Source: Pirellulaceae bacterium
GTDB taxonomy: Bacteria > Planctomycetota > Planctomycetia > Pirellulales > Thermoguttaceae
Assembly: GCA_012744395.1 (NCBI GenBank)
Contig: JAAYCB010000142.1
Coordinates: forward strand, 1-55,032
Reading direction: 5' to 3'
DNA: 55,032 nt
Part shown: positions 18,868 to 30,361 of the stretch, in pieces
How positions within the stretch are numbered: the first letter of the stretch is position 1
How the letters are laid out: the number at the start of each line of letters is the position of its first letter
Notes under the pieces: model-generated
Told to the model about the DNA's origin: nothing
The model's input: only the letters and a program-made list of their open reading frames with translations
The model's database searches: none
Translations under genes and position numbers: made by a program

Positions 18868-20910
<2,043 letters not shown>

Positions 20911-20911
20911 C

Positions 20912-21091
20912 ATGCCGCGATCGGCGAGTCCACCAGCGCGTCGTTCTTCCGGCTTCGCCCCCGCGCGCAAATCGTCGGCCCCCGGTCTGCGTCGCAAGTC
21001 GCTTCTCTCGCGGAACTTGCGGATTGTGCCGGGCGATCCCCGCGACCGCCTCCAAGACGCGCCTGTTCCCCGCCGCGGCAGACCCGAATAA
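20912..21091 (+). CDS. Possible small basic protein, 59 residues
   Basis: An ATG one base after the stop of the sigma-54 activator opens a 59-codon frame ending TAA. The product begins [11 protein letters not shown] and is rich in Arg, Pro and Ser with no recognisable domain. Tight spacing would allow translational coupling, and the second half keeps GC-rich third positions, but random high-GC sequence can look the same. The alternative is simple untranslated sequence. Confidence 0.25.
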
Positions 21092-21170
21092 TTCCGCAGG
21101 CGGCCGGCACAGAGCAGTCTCTCGAGCGCTCGATGAGGCGCACGAAAAAACACGCGAGGTGGTGATCGAT

Positions 21171-22298
21171 ATGTACGAAAACAGGATTCGCCCGCTCTCA
21201 AGACGCGCAGCGCTTGCTGCCGCGTTGTGTTCCGCCCTGCTCGCGGATGGGCGACCGCTGCTGGCCGCCGAGGCAAGCCGAATTCCGGGAGACAATCCCG
21301 CCCGAGACCGCTCGGCAGCGACTTTGCAGGGGCTCCAGCAGGCCACCTTCGGCGCCGGCTGCTTCTGGTGCACGGAAGCGGTCTTCCAGCGGGCAAAAGG
21401 GGTGCGATCGGCCGTCTCGGGCTACAGCGGCGGCAACGTCAAAAACCCGACCTACCAGCAAGTCAGCACCGGGACGACGGGCCATGCCGAAGTCGTTCAA
21501 CTCCGTTTCGATCCAGCGGTGGTTTCCTACAAGGACCTCCTGGAAATCTTCTGGAAAACCCACGATCCGACCACGCTCAACCGGCAGGGGCCCGACGTCG
21601 GCACACAGTATCGTTCGGTGATCTTCTACCACAACCCGGAGCAGAAGCGGTTGGCCGAGCACTACAAGCAGCGGTTGAACGAGTCGAAGCTGTTCGGCGC
21701 TCCGCTGGTCACGGAGATCAGCCCGATCGGCGAATTCTATCCGGCCGAACCCTACCACCAGGAGTACTACGATCGGAACCGCCGCGAGCGCTACTGCCGG
21801 CTGGTGATCCGGCCGAAGCTGGAGAAATTCAAGCAGCTGTTCGAGGACAGGCGGAAGACGGAGCGGGAGATGCAGACGGAGAAGGCGGCCGAGGCGGAGC
21901 AGCTCCAGAAGACCAGGAAGACCGACGCCCAGTGGCAGGCACAATTGACCCCCGAGCAGTTCACCGTCACCCGGAGGAAGGGCACCGAGCCGGCGTTCAC
22001 CGGCAAGTACTGGAATCACAAGGAAGTCGGGGTCTACAACTGCGTCTGCTGCGGGCAGGCGCTGTTCAACTCGGCGGCGAAATTCCAGTCGGGAACCGGC
22101 TGGCCGAGTTTCGCCGCCCCCGTCGCGGCCGGGCATATCGAAGAGGCGATCGACCGCAGCAACTTCATGCTGCGGATGGAGGTCACGTGCTCGCGGTGCG
22201 GCGCCCACCTGGGGCATGTCTTCAACGACGGGCCGCCCCCGACCGGCCTCCGCTACTGCATCAATTCGGCCGCCCTTCAGTTCGACGCCGCAAGGTAA
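21171..22298 (+). CDS. msrAB: Bifunctional peptide methionine sulfoxide reductase MsrA-MsrB
   Basis: A 375-residue fusion. Residues 1-34 look like an export signal with twin arginines ([18 protein letters not shown]), so it probably acts outside the cytoplasm. MsrA (about 57-220) has the catalytic GAGCFWC (Cys64) and reduces the S-epimer. A charged helical linker with [17 protein letters not shown] joins it to MsrB (about 240-372), which reduces the R-epimer. MsrB has the zinc cysteines in CVCCGQALF and [12 protein letters not shown] and the catalytic RYCINSAAL. The start ATG follows GAGGTGGTG. A frame open from 21024 upstream adds unlike residues. Its position beside a Tat-exported oxidoreductase fits a role in repairing envelope proteins, but no operon is proven. 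Confidence 0.95.
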
Positions 22299-24053: not shown

Positions 24054-25613
24054 ATGTCTGACGATCCGTATCTGCGATTGTCCGGCGCCGGCCGGTGTGA
24101 AGTCTTCTCGCGGATTGGCGAAGGGGGAATGGGCGCGGTCTACCGTGGCCGCCACCGCGACCTGGACCTCGACGTGGCGGTCAAGTTCCTGCACGGGCAT
24201 CTCGCCGAGAAGTCCGGCGTCGCCGAGCGATTTCTCCGCGAAGCGCGGCTGGCGGCGCGTCTCCAGTCGCCGGGCGTCGTCCGCGTCTTCGACTGCGGGC
24301 AGAGCGGCGGGCACCTCTATATCGTCATGGAATTCGTCGACGGGCAGACGCTCGAAGCCCATCTCCGCGAGCGCTGCATGATGCCTGTCGGCCGGGCCGT
24401 GCAGATCGCCGAGTCGGTCGCCCAGACGTTGGGCGAAGCTCTCGACCAACTCGGCTTGATCCACCGCGACATCAAGCCGGCGAACATCTTGCTCACCCGC
24501 AGCGGCCAGGTCAAACTCGCCGACCTGGGGCTGGCGAAGGTCGTCGCCCAGGAATGCACGGCCGCTTACACCGCGGCCGGAACCGCCCTCGGCACGCCCG
24601 GCTACATGTCGCCCGAACAGTTCGCCGACGCCGGTCATGTCGACCACCGCGCCGACATCTTCTCGCTCGGTTCGACTCTCTACCAGATGCTCGCCGGACA
24701 GCGTCCGTTTCGCGGCGATTCCTTCTTCCAGGTGCTCAAACAGGTGGAGGAGGCCGAGCCCGAGCCGCTCCCCGCCCACGTCCCCCCGGAAATCCAGGCG
24801 GTTGTCGCGCGGATGATGGCCAAGCGGGCCGAGGATCGTTTCCCGACCTATGCCGAACTGGTCGATGCCTTGCGGCAGGGCCAGCAATCGCTCGGCGATA
24901 CCGAGCAGCACGTGACGGGCATGATCGCCTCCGCCACCGCCCCGACGACGGTCTCCGGTCCCTTGGGCCCGGCCGCCATCCCGCGGTTGAAGTCAATCCG
25001 TCCGGCCGTGCCGACGGAGAACCGCGTGCTCCTGGTCGTCGATGTCCAAAACGATTTCTGCCCCAGCGGCGCGCTGGCCGTTGCCGGCGGCGACGAGGTC
25101 GTGCCGGTGGTCAACAGGCTCTCGCGGCGCTTCGCCCACGTGGTCCTCATCCAGGACTGGCATTGCGAGGACCACCTCTCGTTTGCCTCCTCGCACCCGG
25201 GCAAAAAGACGTATGATCAAGTGGTTTTGCCCTATGGCAAGCAGATCCTCTGGCCCGACCACTGCATCGCCGGGACGCCCGGGGCCGACTTCCACCCGGA
25301 ACTCGAACTGGCGCACTGCGAACTGCTGCTCCGCAAGGGATACCACCGGGAGATCGACTCGTACTCGGCCTTTTTCGAGAACGACCGGCAGACGCCGACC
25401 GGGCTGGCGGGCTACCTCCGCGAACGCGGGCTGATGCGGCTGTTCCTGGTCGGCCTGGCGACCGACTTCTGCGTCGCCTACTCCGCGCTCGACGCGCGGC
25501 GACTGGGCTTCGAGGTGACCGTGATCGAGGCCGGCTGCCGCGGAATCGACGTCGACGGCTCGCTGGCGGCGGCGTGGAAGCAGATGGAGGAAGCGGGCGT
25601 GATCCGGGCCTGA
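24054..25613 (+). CDS. Ser/Thr protein kinase fused to nicotinamidase
   Basis: A 519-residue two-domain protein. Residues 10-285 form a Hanks-type kinase: GEGGMGAV, VAVKFL (catalytic Lys), LIHRDIKPANILL, ADLGLAK and GTPGYMSPEQFA. All catalytic residues are present, with DLG in place of DFG as in many bacterial kinases. After a Thr/Ser/Pro linker (about 286-320), residues 322-519 form a full isochorismatase-fold nicotinamidase: VVDVQNDF (catalytic Asp), QDWHCEDHLSF and WPDHC (metal Asp/His), LLRKGY (Lys) and ATDFCVAY (catalytic Cys near 472). PncA turns nicotinamide into nicotinic acid in NAD salvage. No membrane helix is seen. There is no stop or frameshift between domains. ATG at 24048 is an alternative start. 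Confidence 0.9.
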   Translation: MSDDPYLRLSGAGRCEVFSRIGEGGMGAVYRGRHRDLDLDVAVKFLHGHLAEKSGVAERFLREARLAARLQSPGVVRVFDCGQSGGHLYIVMEFVDGQTLEAHLRERCMMPVGRAVQIAESVAQTLGEALDQLGLIHRDIKPANILLTRSGQVKLADLGLAKVVAQECTAAYTAAGTALGTPGYMSPEQFADAGHVDHRADIFSLGSTLYQMLAGQRPFRGDSFFQVLKQVEEAEPEPLPAHVPPEIQAVVARMMAKRAEDRFPTYAELVDALRQGQQSLGDTEQHVTGMIASATAPTTVSGPLGPAAIPRLKSIRPAVPTENRVLLVVDVQNDFCPSGALAVAGGDEVVPVVNRLSRRFAHVVLIQDWHCEDHLSFASSHPGKKTYDQVVLPYGKQILWPDHCIAGTPGADFHPELELAHCELLLRKGYHREIDSYSAFFENDRQTPTGLAGYLRERGLMRLFLVGLATDFCVAYSALDARRLGFEVTVIEAGCRGIDVDGSLAAAWKQMEEAGVIRA

Positions 25614-25620
25614 CCGCCGC

Positions 25621-26583
25621 TCACTCCCGCGCCGCGTTCGCCGGCCCGGCCAGTGCCGCGGCAAGCTGCACCGCGCCGAGGACCGGCTCCGCGACAAGCC
25701 GGAGGGGGGTCGCTTCCAGCCGGCACGACGCCAACTGTTCCGCCACGCGCTGGCGCAGAGGTTCGCTGCCCAGGAGGACCCCACCGGCCAGGGCGAGTGG
25801 GAACGGCCCCCCGGCAAGGTCCAGCTTGGCGGCCACTGCCCAGACCATCCGAGCGAGTTCTTCCGCAGCGGTGTTGAAGATCTCCTGGGCCACCGGGTCG
25901 CCGGCCTCGGCGGCCTCCGACACGGCCGACGAGAGCGCTGCCAGCCGGGCCCGGTCACCGGCAATCGCATATACGGCCGGAATCAGCGCCTCGGCCCGCG
26001 GAACATTCAGCCTGCCCAGCAGCGCGTCGAGGAGTCGCGTTTGGGGGCCTCGCCCGTCGGCCGCCTTGGCCGCCGCGCGAAGCCCGGCGATCGCCATCGC
26101 GTACCCGCTCCCCTCGTCGCCCATCAAGAACCCCCAACCGCCGGAACGCGCCGCGCGGCCGGCCGGATGGCGGCCGAAAGCGAACGAACCGGTCCCCGAG
26201 ATCAGCGCGATTCCCCATCCGGCGGGAGTCCCCGCGGCCAGCAGGGGGAGAGCGTCGTGGACCACCTCGAAACGAACCGCCAGGTGGCGGCCTTCCGCCC
26301 AGCCGACCAGCGCGCGGCGGTTCTCCTGGCGGTCGGACCCGGCCAGGGCGAGCACCGCCGCGGCCACGGTGCGGGGCGGACTTCCCCGGTCCTCGAATGC
26401 CGCCTGGACCGCGCGGTCCAGGTTGGCAAACGCGGCCGGAAAACCGATGGCCTGCGGATTGGCCGGACCGGCCGAGCCCCGCCCGACGATTTCCAGCGGT
26501 CCCAAGGGCGCGAACCGCGCAAGCCACGCCACGGTCTTCGTCCCCCCACCATCGATGCCCAGAAGAAGCGATTCACCCGTCAT
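25621..26583 (-). CDS. BadF/BcrA-type ATPase, probable GlcNAc/MurNAc kinase
   Basis: A 320-residue sugar-kinase/actin-fold protein of the BadF/BadG/BcrA/BcrD group that includes N-acetylglucosamine kinase and clostridial MurK. The ATP phosphate-1 motif is LLGIDGGGTKTV (residues about 7-18). Phosphate-2/adenosine segments follow as ISGTGSFAFG and GGWGFLMGDEGSGY, and LALAGGVLLG lies near the C-terminus. Its ATG lies inside the end of murQ (11-base overlap), so the two are translated together. MurQ needs MurNAc-6-phosphate, which this kinase would supply from free MurNAc; GlcNAc is an equally possible substrate. It ends eight bases from the convergent kinase-nicotinamidase gene. Confidence 0.85.
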   Translation of the reverse strand: MTGESLLLGIDGGGTKTVAWLARFAPLGPLEIVGRGSAGPANPQAIGFPAAFANLDRAVQAAFEDRGSPPRTVAAAVLALAGSDRQENRRALVGWAEGRHLAVRFEVVHDALPLLAAGTPAGWGIALISGTGSFAFGRHPAGRAARSGGWGFLMGDEGSGYAMAIAGLRAAAKAADGRGPQTRLLDALLGRLNVPRAEALIPAVYAIAGDRARLAALSSAVSEAAEAGDPVAQEIFNTAAEELARMVWAVAAKLDLAGGPFPLALAGGVLLGSEPLRQRVAEQLASCRLEATPLRLVAEPVLGAVQLAAALAGPANAARE

Positions 26584-27475
26584 GGTCTTCCAAGGCCTTT
26601 CGCAAGTGGCCGTCGGCCCTCTGAATCCGGGCTCGCGCCGCGTCGGCCCCGATCGACCAACGCTGCATGACGATCGCCGTTTTCACCTCTCCGTCGCAAC
26701 GGCTCAGAAGCTCCCTGGCTTGCGATTCGCTCGCGCCGGTGATCTGGCAGACGATCCGCCGGGACCGCTCGACGAGCTTCCTGTTGGTCGCCCGCAAGTC
26801 GACCATCAGGTTGCCGTAGGTCTTCCCCAACAGGACCATCGCGCCGGTGGTGACCATGTTGAGGACCATTTTGGTGGCCGTGCCCGCCTTCAGCCGGGTT
26901 GAGCCGGTGATCACTTCCGGGCCGACGACCGGCGCGATCAGCAGGTCGCAGCGCGAGGCCAGGGCGGAGTCGCGGTTGCAGCTCAGGCCGATGGCGAAAG
27001 CCCCCACGCGCCGCGCAAAGCCGAGGCCGGCCAGCACGTAGGGCGTCCGCCCACTCGTGGCGATGCCGAGCACCGCGTCGGCAGCGCACAGGCCGACGGC
27101 CTGGAGATCCTGGACCGCCGATTCGGGGATATCCTCGGCCCCCTCCACGGCGCGGGTCATCGCGGGCTGCCCGCCAGCAATCAGCCCGAGCACCATTTCC
27201 GGCGGCGTGTTGAACGTCGGGGGACATTCGGCGGCGTCGATGGCCCCGAGCCTGCCGGAAGTGCCGGCCCCCAGGTAGATCAGCCGGCCCCCGCCGCGGA
27301 ACCGCTCGGCGACCACCTCGATCGTCCGCGCGATCGGCTCCGCCTCGCGGCCAACCGCCTCGGCCAGGGTGGCATCCTCGGCGTTCATCAACCGGACGAT
27401 CTCCAGGGCGGAGAGGCCGTCGATCCGCTCCGATGCCGGATTGCGCTGCTCGGTCGTGAGGTGTTCCAGGGTCAT
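26573..27475 (-). CDS. murQ: N-acetylmuramic acid 6-phosphate etherase
   Basis: A 300-residue MurQ, which removes D-lactate from MurNAc-6-phosphate to give GlcNAc-6-phosphate during cell-wall recycling. The SIS-domain signature LGAGTSGRLGAIDAAECPPT is complete, with the catalytic Glu in A-A-E-C. A second conserved acidic loop is AVEGAEDIP, and ATSGRTPYVL is the phosphosugar-binding Ser/Thr loop. The C-terminal helical UBA-like tail (LLSRCDGEVKTAIVM) is also typical. The N-terminus LTTEQRNPASERID is the family start, so the ATG is secure. It heads a two-gene unit with the sugar kinase. This supports peptidoglycan being made and recycled in this planctomycete. Confidence 0.96.
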   Translation of the reverse strand: MTLEHLTTEQRNPASERIDGLSALEIVRLMNAEDATLAEAVGREAEPIARTIEVVAERFRGGGRLIYLGAGTSGRLGAIDAAECPPTFNTPPEMVLGLIAGGQPAMTRAVEGAEDIPESAVQDLQAVGLCAADAVLGIATSGRTPYVLAGLGFARRVGAFAIGLSCNRDSALASRCDLLIAPVVGPEVITGSTRLKAGTATKMVLNMVTTGAMVLLGKTYGNLMVDLRATNRKLVERSRRIVCQITGASESQARELLSRCDGEVKTAIVMQRWSIGADAARARIQRADGHLRKALEDHDG

Positions 27476-27524
27476 TGCGTTTCCCGCCTCCTCGGCGACA
27501 GTTCACGATTATACCCGATCCAGG

Positions 27525-28085
27525 TCAGGCGAGCGTTCCCGCAACGATCAAGAACAGCGCCGCGCCGATCACCAGGCAGGTCAACGCGCCGAACCGGTCG
27601 GTCCACGAGCACGGCGGCGGCGAAAGCTCACCAGAGGTCCGGGCGAGCAGCACAATCAGCGCATTGACCGCGCAGCCGATCTCGACCAGGCACAGCACCA
27701 TCGCCAGGATGGCGAACGAGACAGCGCGGATTTCTTCCGGATCGGGCAGGCTGTGGGCGCCCCAGTAGATGACCCATATGCCCAACAGACCGGCGACGAA
27801 AACCGCAAGCGGGCTCAGCCAAAGCCACTCGCCGGCGCTGAGCGCGATCCTGCGTCCTCGAAACAGCCACTGCGAGCCCAAAACGATCGGTCCCGAAACC
27901 GCGCCGCCCAGGCAAGCGGCGATCAGAACCAGCACCACGCTCCCGATGTCGATCGCCTCGAAAGCGCCACGGGCCGGCAGAAACACCACGGAAAAGGCGA
28001 TCGCATAACCGGCCTGGAGCAGCAGTCCGTCGAGAACCGTGAACTGCTGCCAAGGCTGGCCCGGCTGTTGGTTCGGTTGACCCAT
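27525..28085 (-). CDS. Membrane protein of unknown function
   Basis: A 186-residue protein with about five hydrophobic helices (roughly residues 20-40, 48-72, 85-105, 112-140 and 160-184) and a Gln/Pro-rich N-terminus MGQPNQQPGQPWQQF. No domain is recognised and no charged catalytic motif stands out. The ATG at 28085 was chosen because hydrophobic sequence with normal composition begins just after it; the frame extends to 28301 through Arg-rich sequence that looks untranslated. It lies about 50 bases upstream of murQ on the same strand and may share its transcript. Confidence 0.6.
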   Translation of the reverse strand: MGQPNQQPGQPWQQFTVLDGLLLQAGYAIAFSVVFLPARGAFEAIDIGSVVLVLIAACLGGAVSGPIVLGSQWLFRGRRIALSAGEWLWLSPLAVFVAGLLGIWVIYWGAHSLPDPEEIRAVSFAILAMVLCLVEIGCAVNALIVLLARTSGELSPPPCSWTDRFGALTCLVIGAALFLIVAGTLA

Positions 28086-28343
28086 GGATCGAAGACAGGG
28101 CCGCCGGCTGCCGCCCGAAATCGCCAACCGGCCAAGGACGGGAGGCAACCGCAAGATCTGGAGACACCCGCCCATTATATGCCAGCGGAAGGCAGCTCCG
28201 AGGTCCTGCCCCGCGGTTTTCCGACGCACCCCCCCGGTCAGGGCAACGCGACCAACCCTCAGGGACCGATGCACCGCAAACGCAACGGCACCGACCCGCA
28301 AGGGGCGGCGCCGTTGCCTCGCTTGAAGTCCGTGCGGGGCCGA

Positions 28344-29522
<1,179 letters not shown>

Positions 29523-29569
29523 TTATACTGGTGGAAAAACGACGCCACAAGGACCTCGCAGCACAGATC

Positions 29570-30361
29570 ATGTCCCACGAGACTCGCCCGCACCGGAGGC
29601 TCCCCAGGGGGGTAACCCGCAGCCTCTGGGAATATGCCCATGCCAAGCATATTGCCACCGAGTACGACGAGTACTTCGCGGATAACCGGCTTTTTGACGT
29701 CGACGCACAGGTGATCGCACGGCACTTGACCTCGCCCGGCGTCGTCGTTGACCTGGGTTGCGGAACGGGACGCGCGCTTATCCCCCTCGCTCGGCGGGAA
29801 TTCAGTCCCCTGGGGGTCGATCTGTCGAACCACATGCTCCGCATCGTCGCCGAAAAGGCCGCCCGCGAGAGGCTCACGATTCACCGCATCCGCGCAAACC
29901 TCGTTGACCTCGGATTCTTGCGCGACGCGTCGATCGACTACGCGATCTGCCTGTTCAGCACGTTGGGAATGATTCGCAGCCGGGAAAACCGCGGCCGCAC
30001 GCTCGACCACGTCTTTCGCATGCTCAAGCCGGGCGGCCTGCTGGTGATCCACGTCCACAATTACTGGTTCAACCTCTTCGACCGGTTCGGGCGGCGATGG
30101 ATCGTCCGCAATCTCCTCGACTGGACCTTCAATCGCCAGATCGAACTGGGCGACAAGTTCTTCGATTACCGGGGCGTGCCCAAGATGTTTCTCCATACGT
30201 TCACCCAGCGGGAATTCAGGAAAGCCCTCCGTCGGTCGGGCTTTCGAATCCGCGAATGGACGCCGCTGAATGTCCCCCGAACCGGCCGGCTCGCCGCGTC
30301 GTGGTTCTTCGGCTCGCTGCGGGCAAACGGCTGGATCGCGGTGGCGGAGAAAAAGCGGTAG
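29570..30361 (+). CDS. Class I SAM-dependent methyltransferase
   Basis: A 263-residue protein with a standard Rossmann methyltransferase core. Motif I is VVVDLGCGTGRALIPLA (about residues 61-77), followed by GVDLSNHML for the acidic residue that binds the SAM ribose, a YAICLFSTLGMI strand and MLKPGGLLVIHVHNYW. The C-terminal part contains KMFLHTFTQREFRKAL and a basic tail. The substrate is not evident; such a core modifies small molecules, lipids or proteins. The frame is open back to 29354 over the gap leader. ATG at 29570 removes the unlike part. holB begins about 100 bases downstream. Confidence 0.85.
   Translation: MSHETRPHRRLPRGVTRSLWEYAHAKHIATEYDEYFADNRLFDVDAQVIARHLTSPGVVVDLGCGTGRALIPLARREFSPLGVDLSNHMLRIVAEKAARERLTIHRIRANLVDLGFLRDASIDYAICLFSTLGMIRSRENRGRTLDHVFRMLKPGGLLVIHVHNYWFNLFDRFGRRWIVRNLLDWTFNRQIELGDKFFDYRGVPKMFLHTFTQREFRKALRRSGFRIREWTPLNVPRTGRLAASWFFGSLRANGWIAVAEKKR

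Follow-up and report, generated by a model that had tools for sequence, protein, structure and literature searches.

The fusion gene and its domains

The window, meaning the whole 55,032-nucleotide stretch of DNA that was analysed, contains a single uninterrupted frame of 519 codons on its forward strand, translated without a stop, in which a PknB-type Ser/Thr kinase is followed by a nicotinamidase (PncA):

24054..25613, + strand: kinase–nicotinamidase fusion gene, 519 aa plus stop (whole-length homologues)
24054..24893, + strand: PknB-type Ser/Thr kinase domain, residues 1–280 (Pkinase, PknB 1mru, invariant motifs, dN/dS)
24894..25016, + strand: linker, residues 281–321, about 40 residues (pLDDT under 50 at 282–321; dN/dS 0.35–0.61)
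25017..25610, + strand: nicotinamidase (PncA) domain, residues 322–519 (NF008623; 2wt9; dN/dS 0.05–0.12)

Pfam profiles placed Pkinase at residues 17–263 (E = 4e-48) and Isochorismatase at residues 325–515 (E = 7.5e-26). The NCBIfam nicotinamidase/pyrazinamidase equivalog NF008623, which has a curated cut-off of 174 bits, was matched at 210.9 bits by the whole protein and at 214.5 bits by the PncA half. The best matches among solved structures were the A. baumannii nicotinamidase (2wt9, E = 1.5e-74) for the enzyme half and M. tuberculosis PknB (1mru, E = 4.5e-46) for the kinase half. The Stk1/PknB equivalog with PASTA repeats, NF033483, reached 273.8 bits, below its cut-off of 450, and the match ended at residue 287. 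Many PADLOC models for the PD-T4-6 anti-phage kinase also matched; most of these matches covered the kinase domain, as could be the case for any kinase of this kind.

The stop codon is separated by 7 bases from a convergent gene, and 307 bases lie between the preceding gene and the start codon; the fusion gene is therefore probably transcribed alone.

Distribution of the fusion

The same fusion, 64–83% identical, was found in both isolates and metagenome-assembled genomes. A scan of named genomes identified it in the isolates Singulisphaera acidiphila DSM 18658, Singulisphaera sp. GP187 and Paludisphaera soli, and a whole-length homologue, 83% identical, is present in a second genus of the window's own family. 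In a survey of 397 Planctomycetia genomes, this type of PncA occurred in 18, and in 16 of these it shared one long frame (518–702 codons) with the kinase. The 16 genomes span six families (f1, f16, f21, f22, f118 and f121), across which the kinase halves are 59–83% identical. The distribution is patchy: of the 119 genomes from the family of the window, just 3 have the fusion. A full-length fusion was not found in the plasmid collection. Other long PncA frames (loci L014, L024, L141, L149 and L193) have upstream extensions that, judged by eye, do not resemble a second domain.

The preliminary description, which had proposed a real fusion of a kinase and a nicotinamidase in this one frame, had also raised the possibility of a missed stop or frameshift at the junction, by which two separate genes would have been merged during assembly. 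The window's assembly is indeed a draft of 551 contigs. However, the same open frame occurs in isolate, complete and single-contig genomes and, at 83% identity, in the second genus of the family; since these independent genomes share it, we rejected an assembly artefact as virtually inconceivable. The profiles and the homologues thus bear out the fusion itself.

Close relatives of the kinase half were found in 17 of the 397 genomes, and each is part of a long frame that includes PncA sequence as well; a kinase half without PncA sequence was not found in this set. In the kinase-half match in G722, whose coordinates match those of locus L065 in G535, the PncA frame departs before the catalytic Cys. 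At L065 (8001–9686) the fusion frame diverges shortly before this residue; the genome also has a second, 39% identical PncA-like gene. An assembly from the same genus as the window (G001; locus L056, contig C754), compared with window positions 24506–30146, has lost 88 bp from the kinase part, which shifts the frame, and also lacks the last PncA residues and two downstream genes (25581–27522). The damage may be either true decay or a fault of the assembly.

Active sites, linker and selection

Residue conservation was scored on 17–18 aligned fusions, with each residue counted where a copy covers its position. The principal residues are located as follows:

24183..24185, + strand: kinase ATP-binding Lys44 (17 of 17 full-length fusions)
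24468..24470, + strand: kinase catalytic Asp139 of HRD (18 of 18)
24522..24524, + strand: kinase metal Asp157 of DLG, a DFG variant (18 of 18)
25041..25043, + strand: PncA catalytic Asp330 (18 of 18)
25155..25175, + strand: PncA metal-site loop D368-W-H370-C-E-D-H374 (D368, H370 and H374 in 18 of 18)
25260..25262, + strand: PncA metal ligand His403 of WPDHC, which corresponds to WPPHC in M. tuberculosis PncA (18 of 18)
25335..25337, + strand: PncA catalytic Lys428 (18 of 18)
25470..25472, + strand: PncA catalytic nucleophile Cys473 (18 of 18)

All kinase motifs (GxGGMG at 22–27, K44, E63, HRD at 137–139, N144 and DLG at 157–159) are present and are invariant in the aligned fusions that cover these positions, as are Thr173 and Thr181 of the activation segment across the alignment. 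This invariance indicates that kinase activity has been selected. On the PncA side, D330, K428, C473, D368, H370, H374 and H403 are present in all 18 fusions. Asp330 presumably has the catalytic role expected from known PncA chemistry, and D368, H370 and H374 are taken to form the metal site by homology with known PncA structures. D373, considered as a possible hallmark of the fusions, was rejected, Asp being frequent at this position among PncAs in general. The earlier statement that both active sites are intact extends to every catalytic and metal residue examined in the 17–18 fusions, and the fusion, whose conservation had been proposed at the same time as a check, is present in 16 of 397 genomes from six families. 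Both halves are predicted to be catalytic, one in hydrolysis of nicotinamide and the other in protein phosphorylation.

Pairwise dN/dS values, which are simple NG86 estimates from five pairs, were 0.09–0.18 for the kinase, 0.05–0.12 for PncA and 0.35–0.61 for the linker. Both domains are therefore under purifying selection, PncA evolving more slowly than the kinase, while the linker is relaxed. Conservation of the linker is poor, no phospho-site in it being obviously invariant among the aligned fusions, and it is probably disordered; its last residues overlap a conserved PxENR junction (residues 320–324), of which E322-N323-R324 are kept in 18 of 18 fusions. The structure model consisted of two domains joined by a low-confidence linker (residues 282–321), and with a mean pLDDT of 68 and a pTM of 0.51, it is too weak to place the domains relative to each other.

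Origin of the nicotinamidase half

In a tree of 84 PncA sequences, the fusions fell on one side of a branch (99/88), adjoining proteobacterial and other enzymes, and apart from the stand-alone PncAs of planctomycetes. The closest stand-alone enzymes were from an Acidobacteriaceae assembly (62% identity) and from Azospirillum and Sinorhizobium plasmids (62–63%). Because of this placement and these closest relatives, the PncA half is likely to have come from outside the phylum and to have been joined once to a kinase; a single origin of the fusion is supported by the trees. In the resulting scenario, a PncA of proteobacterial or acidobacterial type would have been joined to the kinase and the fusion would now be patchily distributed, in place of the stand-alone enzyme.

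Two genomes (G627 and G816) have this type of PncA without the kinase half. One of them, G627, shares its genus with a genome that has the fusion (G638), whereas the assembly of G816 is 75% complete. The best kinases of G627 and G816 are 44% and 41% identical, respectively, to the kinase of the window. In a larger tree, both kinase-less PncAs fell within the fusion group and had longer branches. A fusion clade that excludes them was rejected by the AU test when more outgroups were included (p = 0.006), but not with few outgroups (p = 0.12). Loss of the kinase half on two occasions is thus favoured but not proven, the result depending on the rows included, and descent of the two enzymes from a pre-fusion ancestor is disfavoured by the larger set, though not by the smaller one. 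The stand-alone PncAs L210:1411–2103 and L211:1498–2169, which group within the fusion clade and have longer branches than the fusions, have lost the ENR junction motif and have Gly at the position of D373.

The fusion as the probable nicotinamidase of its hosts

Nicotinamidase converts nicotinamide, or vitamin B3, to nicotinate for Preiss–Handler salvage of NAD. In the genome of the window, the fusion is the sole clear PncA. Just one further protein of the isochorismatase family is encoded there (181–189 aa, contig C435), and the PncA-half query did not match it. In 10 of 11 fusion genomes, the fusion was the only PncA match at E = 1e-20, and in most fusion genomes it replaces the ordinary stand-alone enzyme. 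Adjacent genes for PncB and NadE lie on another contig of this genome (C292), and nicotinate therefore has a route into NAD. Taken together with the known path of NAD salvage, the presence of this route and of a sole clear PncA makes the fusion most likely the working nicotinamidase of its hosts.

Genomic neighbourhood

No gene family other than the fusion itself was found to be common to at least three fusion loci, although some neighbours are shared by the two Singulisphaera genomes. The stretch of G013 DNA that aligns to the window begins at the start codon of the fusion and extends just past its stop. The preliminary description had suggested that the nearby FHA–sigma54 activator could read a signal from the fusion. 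The domains of this protein (FHA, GAF, sigma54 activator and Fis HTH; 18868–20910, + strand) were confirmed. However, the fusion genomes have no conserved neighbours, the other genus of the family aligns to the window over the fusion gene alone, and neither a sigma54 activator common to the fusion loci nor membership of the fusion in an FHA–sigma54 operon was found, so the suggestion was dropped.

Downstream, convergent with the fusion, are genes for a BadF/BcrA-type ATPase and a SIS-domain (MurQ/GKRP-like) protein (25621–27475, − strand), which share a few bases of overlap and resemble a pair for the recycling of amino sugars. A link between them and the fusion was rejected, these neighbours not being conserved. 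Upstream, a frame at 21024–22298 (+ strand) reads, by eye from its translation, as an MsrA–MsrB methionine sulfoxide reductase fusion. The stand-alone planctomycete PncAs at L014 and L024 adjoin Nudix-type (NrtR-like) frames, and L024 also has NadD-, NadK- and PncB-like frames nearby (all names assigned by eye); an NAD gene cluster of this kind is absent around the fusion.

The role of the kinase half

The reading that we tentatively prefer, at somewhat less than an even chance on the sequence evidence, is that the fusion is the nicotinamidase of the cell, tuned in cis by the attached kinase. A soluble bifunctional protein would deamidate nicotinamide to nicotinate for Preiss–Handler salvage, and its N-terminal PknB-type kinase would regulate this step in cis by phosphorylating itself, the linker and/or the PncA domain, leading to an altered nicotinamidase output. 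The direction of control and the sites of phosphorylation are presumptive elements of this model. We favoured a kinase in the service of the enzyme over an enzyme that acts purely as a sensor for the kinase, mainly because the kinase was never found without PncA, while PncA was found twice without the kinase, an asymmetry that leans towards the former. Counting against control in cis are the poorly conserved linker, the structure model, which does not fix the placement of the domains, the two lineages that appear to manage without the kinase half, and the kinase deletion in G001, although the deletion may be a fault of the assembly.

In the main rival reading, PncA could be the sensor: binding of nicotinamide or nicotinate in the PncA site would set the activity of the kinase on other proteins and thereby report NAD turnover. 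Selection for kinase activity, as reflected in the invariant motifs and Thr173 and Thr181, would fit such a role, as would the constant presence of PncA sequence beside the kinase (17 of 17) and the accessory domains often borne by planctomycete kinases (PMC11032199). However, the catalytic residues of PncA are all retained and most hosts have no other clear PncA, so that the domain is no mere sensor. Furthermore, this PncA type stands without a kinase in two genomes, and there is no conserved neighbour or partner that would indicate a target. We consider this reading rather unlikely.

A third reading, which we regard as unlikely, is that the halves are not coupled at all, and that a chance fusion has been kept as the sole nicotinamidase, the kinase acting independently or aiding only expression or localisation. 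The variable, probably disordered linker, the slower evolution of PncA relative to the kinase and the two genomes in which PncA lacks the kinase half are all consistent with this. Across six families, however, all of the catalytic residues examined in the kinase are retained, at 59–83% identity and a dN/dS of 0.09–0.18, and the kinase was never found outside the fusion, which would be unexpected for an independent kinase.

Finally, an active nicotinamidase might consume nicotinamide and at the same time switch a kinase that phosphorylates other proteins. We think such a nicotinamide-gated kinase improbable; if true, it would constitute a one-protein sensor of NAD turnover, a type of signalling for which we found no description.

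Comparison with known systems

The usual partners of Hanks-type kinases in bacteria are membrane sensors or protein-binding repeats, and the signals to which these kinases respond are for the most part unknown. In the fusion, the partner of the kinase is a defined metabolic enzyme, and its small-molecule substrate is likewise defined. The replacement of the ordinary enzyme by a conserved fusion suggests that NAD recycling may be tied to protein phosphorylation in these planctomycetes, and the fusion offers a testable case of direct coupling between the two in isolates such as Singulisphaera acidiphila.

The preliminary description knew of no such system, and our search of the open PMC literature likewise found no description of a kinase–nicotinamidase fusion. 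The combination may have an entry in domain databases or tables where it is not discussed. The parts are ordinary, but the kinase–enzyme architecture is genuine and conserved, and apparently undescribed. A 2024 survey of planctomycete kinases listed 105 accessory domain groups, and its main text makes no mention of an isochorismatase or nicotinamidase accessory domain (PMC11032199).

The planctomycete kinases described there likewise combine a kinase with an accessory module (WD40, TPR or sulfatase-modifying domain; Odelgard et al. 2024, PMC11032199) and come from the same phylum, but they are mostly membrane proteins, commonly with repeat domains. Kinases of the PknB/Stk1 type share the same kinase domain with all of its motifs (E = 4.5e-46 to M. 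tuberculosis PknB); the protein of the window differs from them in having no PASTA repeats and a metabolic enzyme in the accessory position. The stand-alone planctomycete PncAs (L014 and L024) have the same predicted reaction, but belong to a different PncA clade and lie in neighbourhoods of NAD genes. Stand-alone PncAs from A. baumannii (2wt9), S. meliloti and Azospirillum share the Asp-Lys-Cys triad and the metal ligands with the fusion, at about 55–63% identity over ~200 residues; these are single-domain enzymes, whereas that of the window forms the C-terminal half of a kinase protein.
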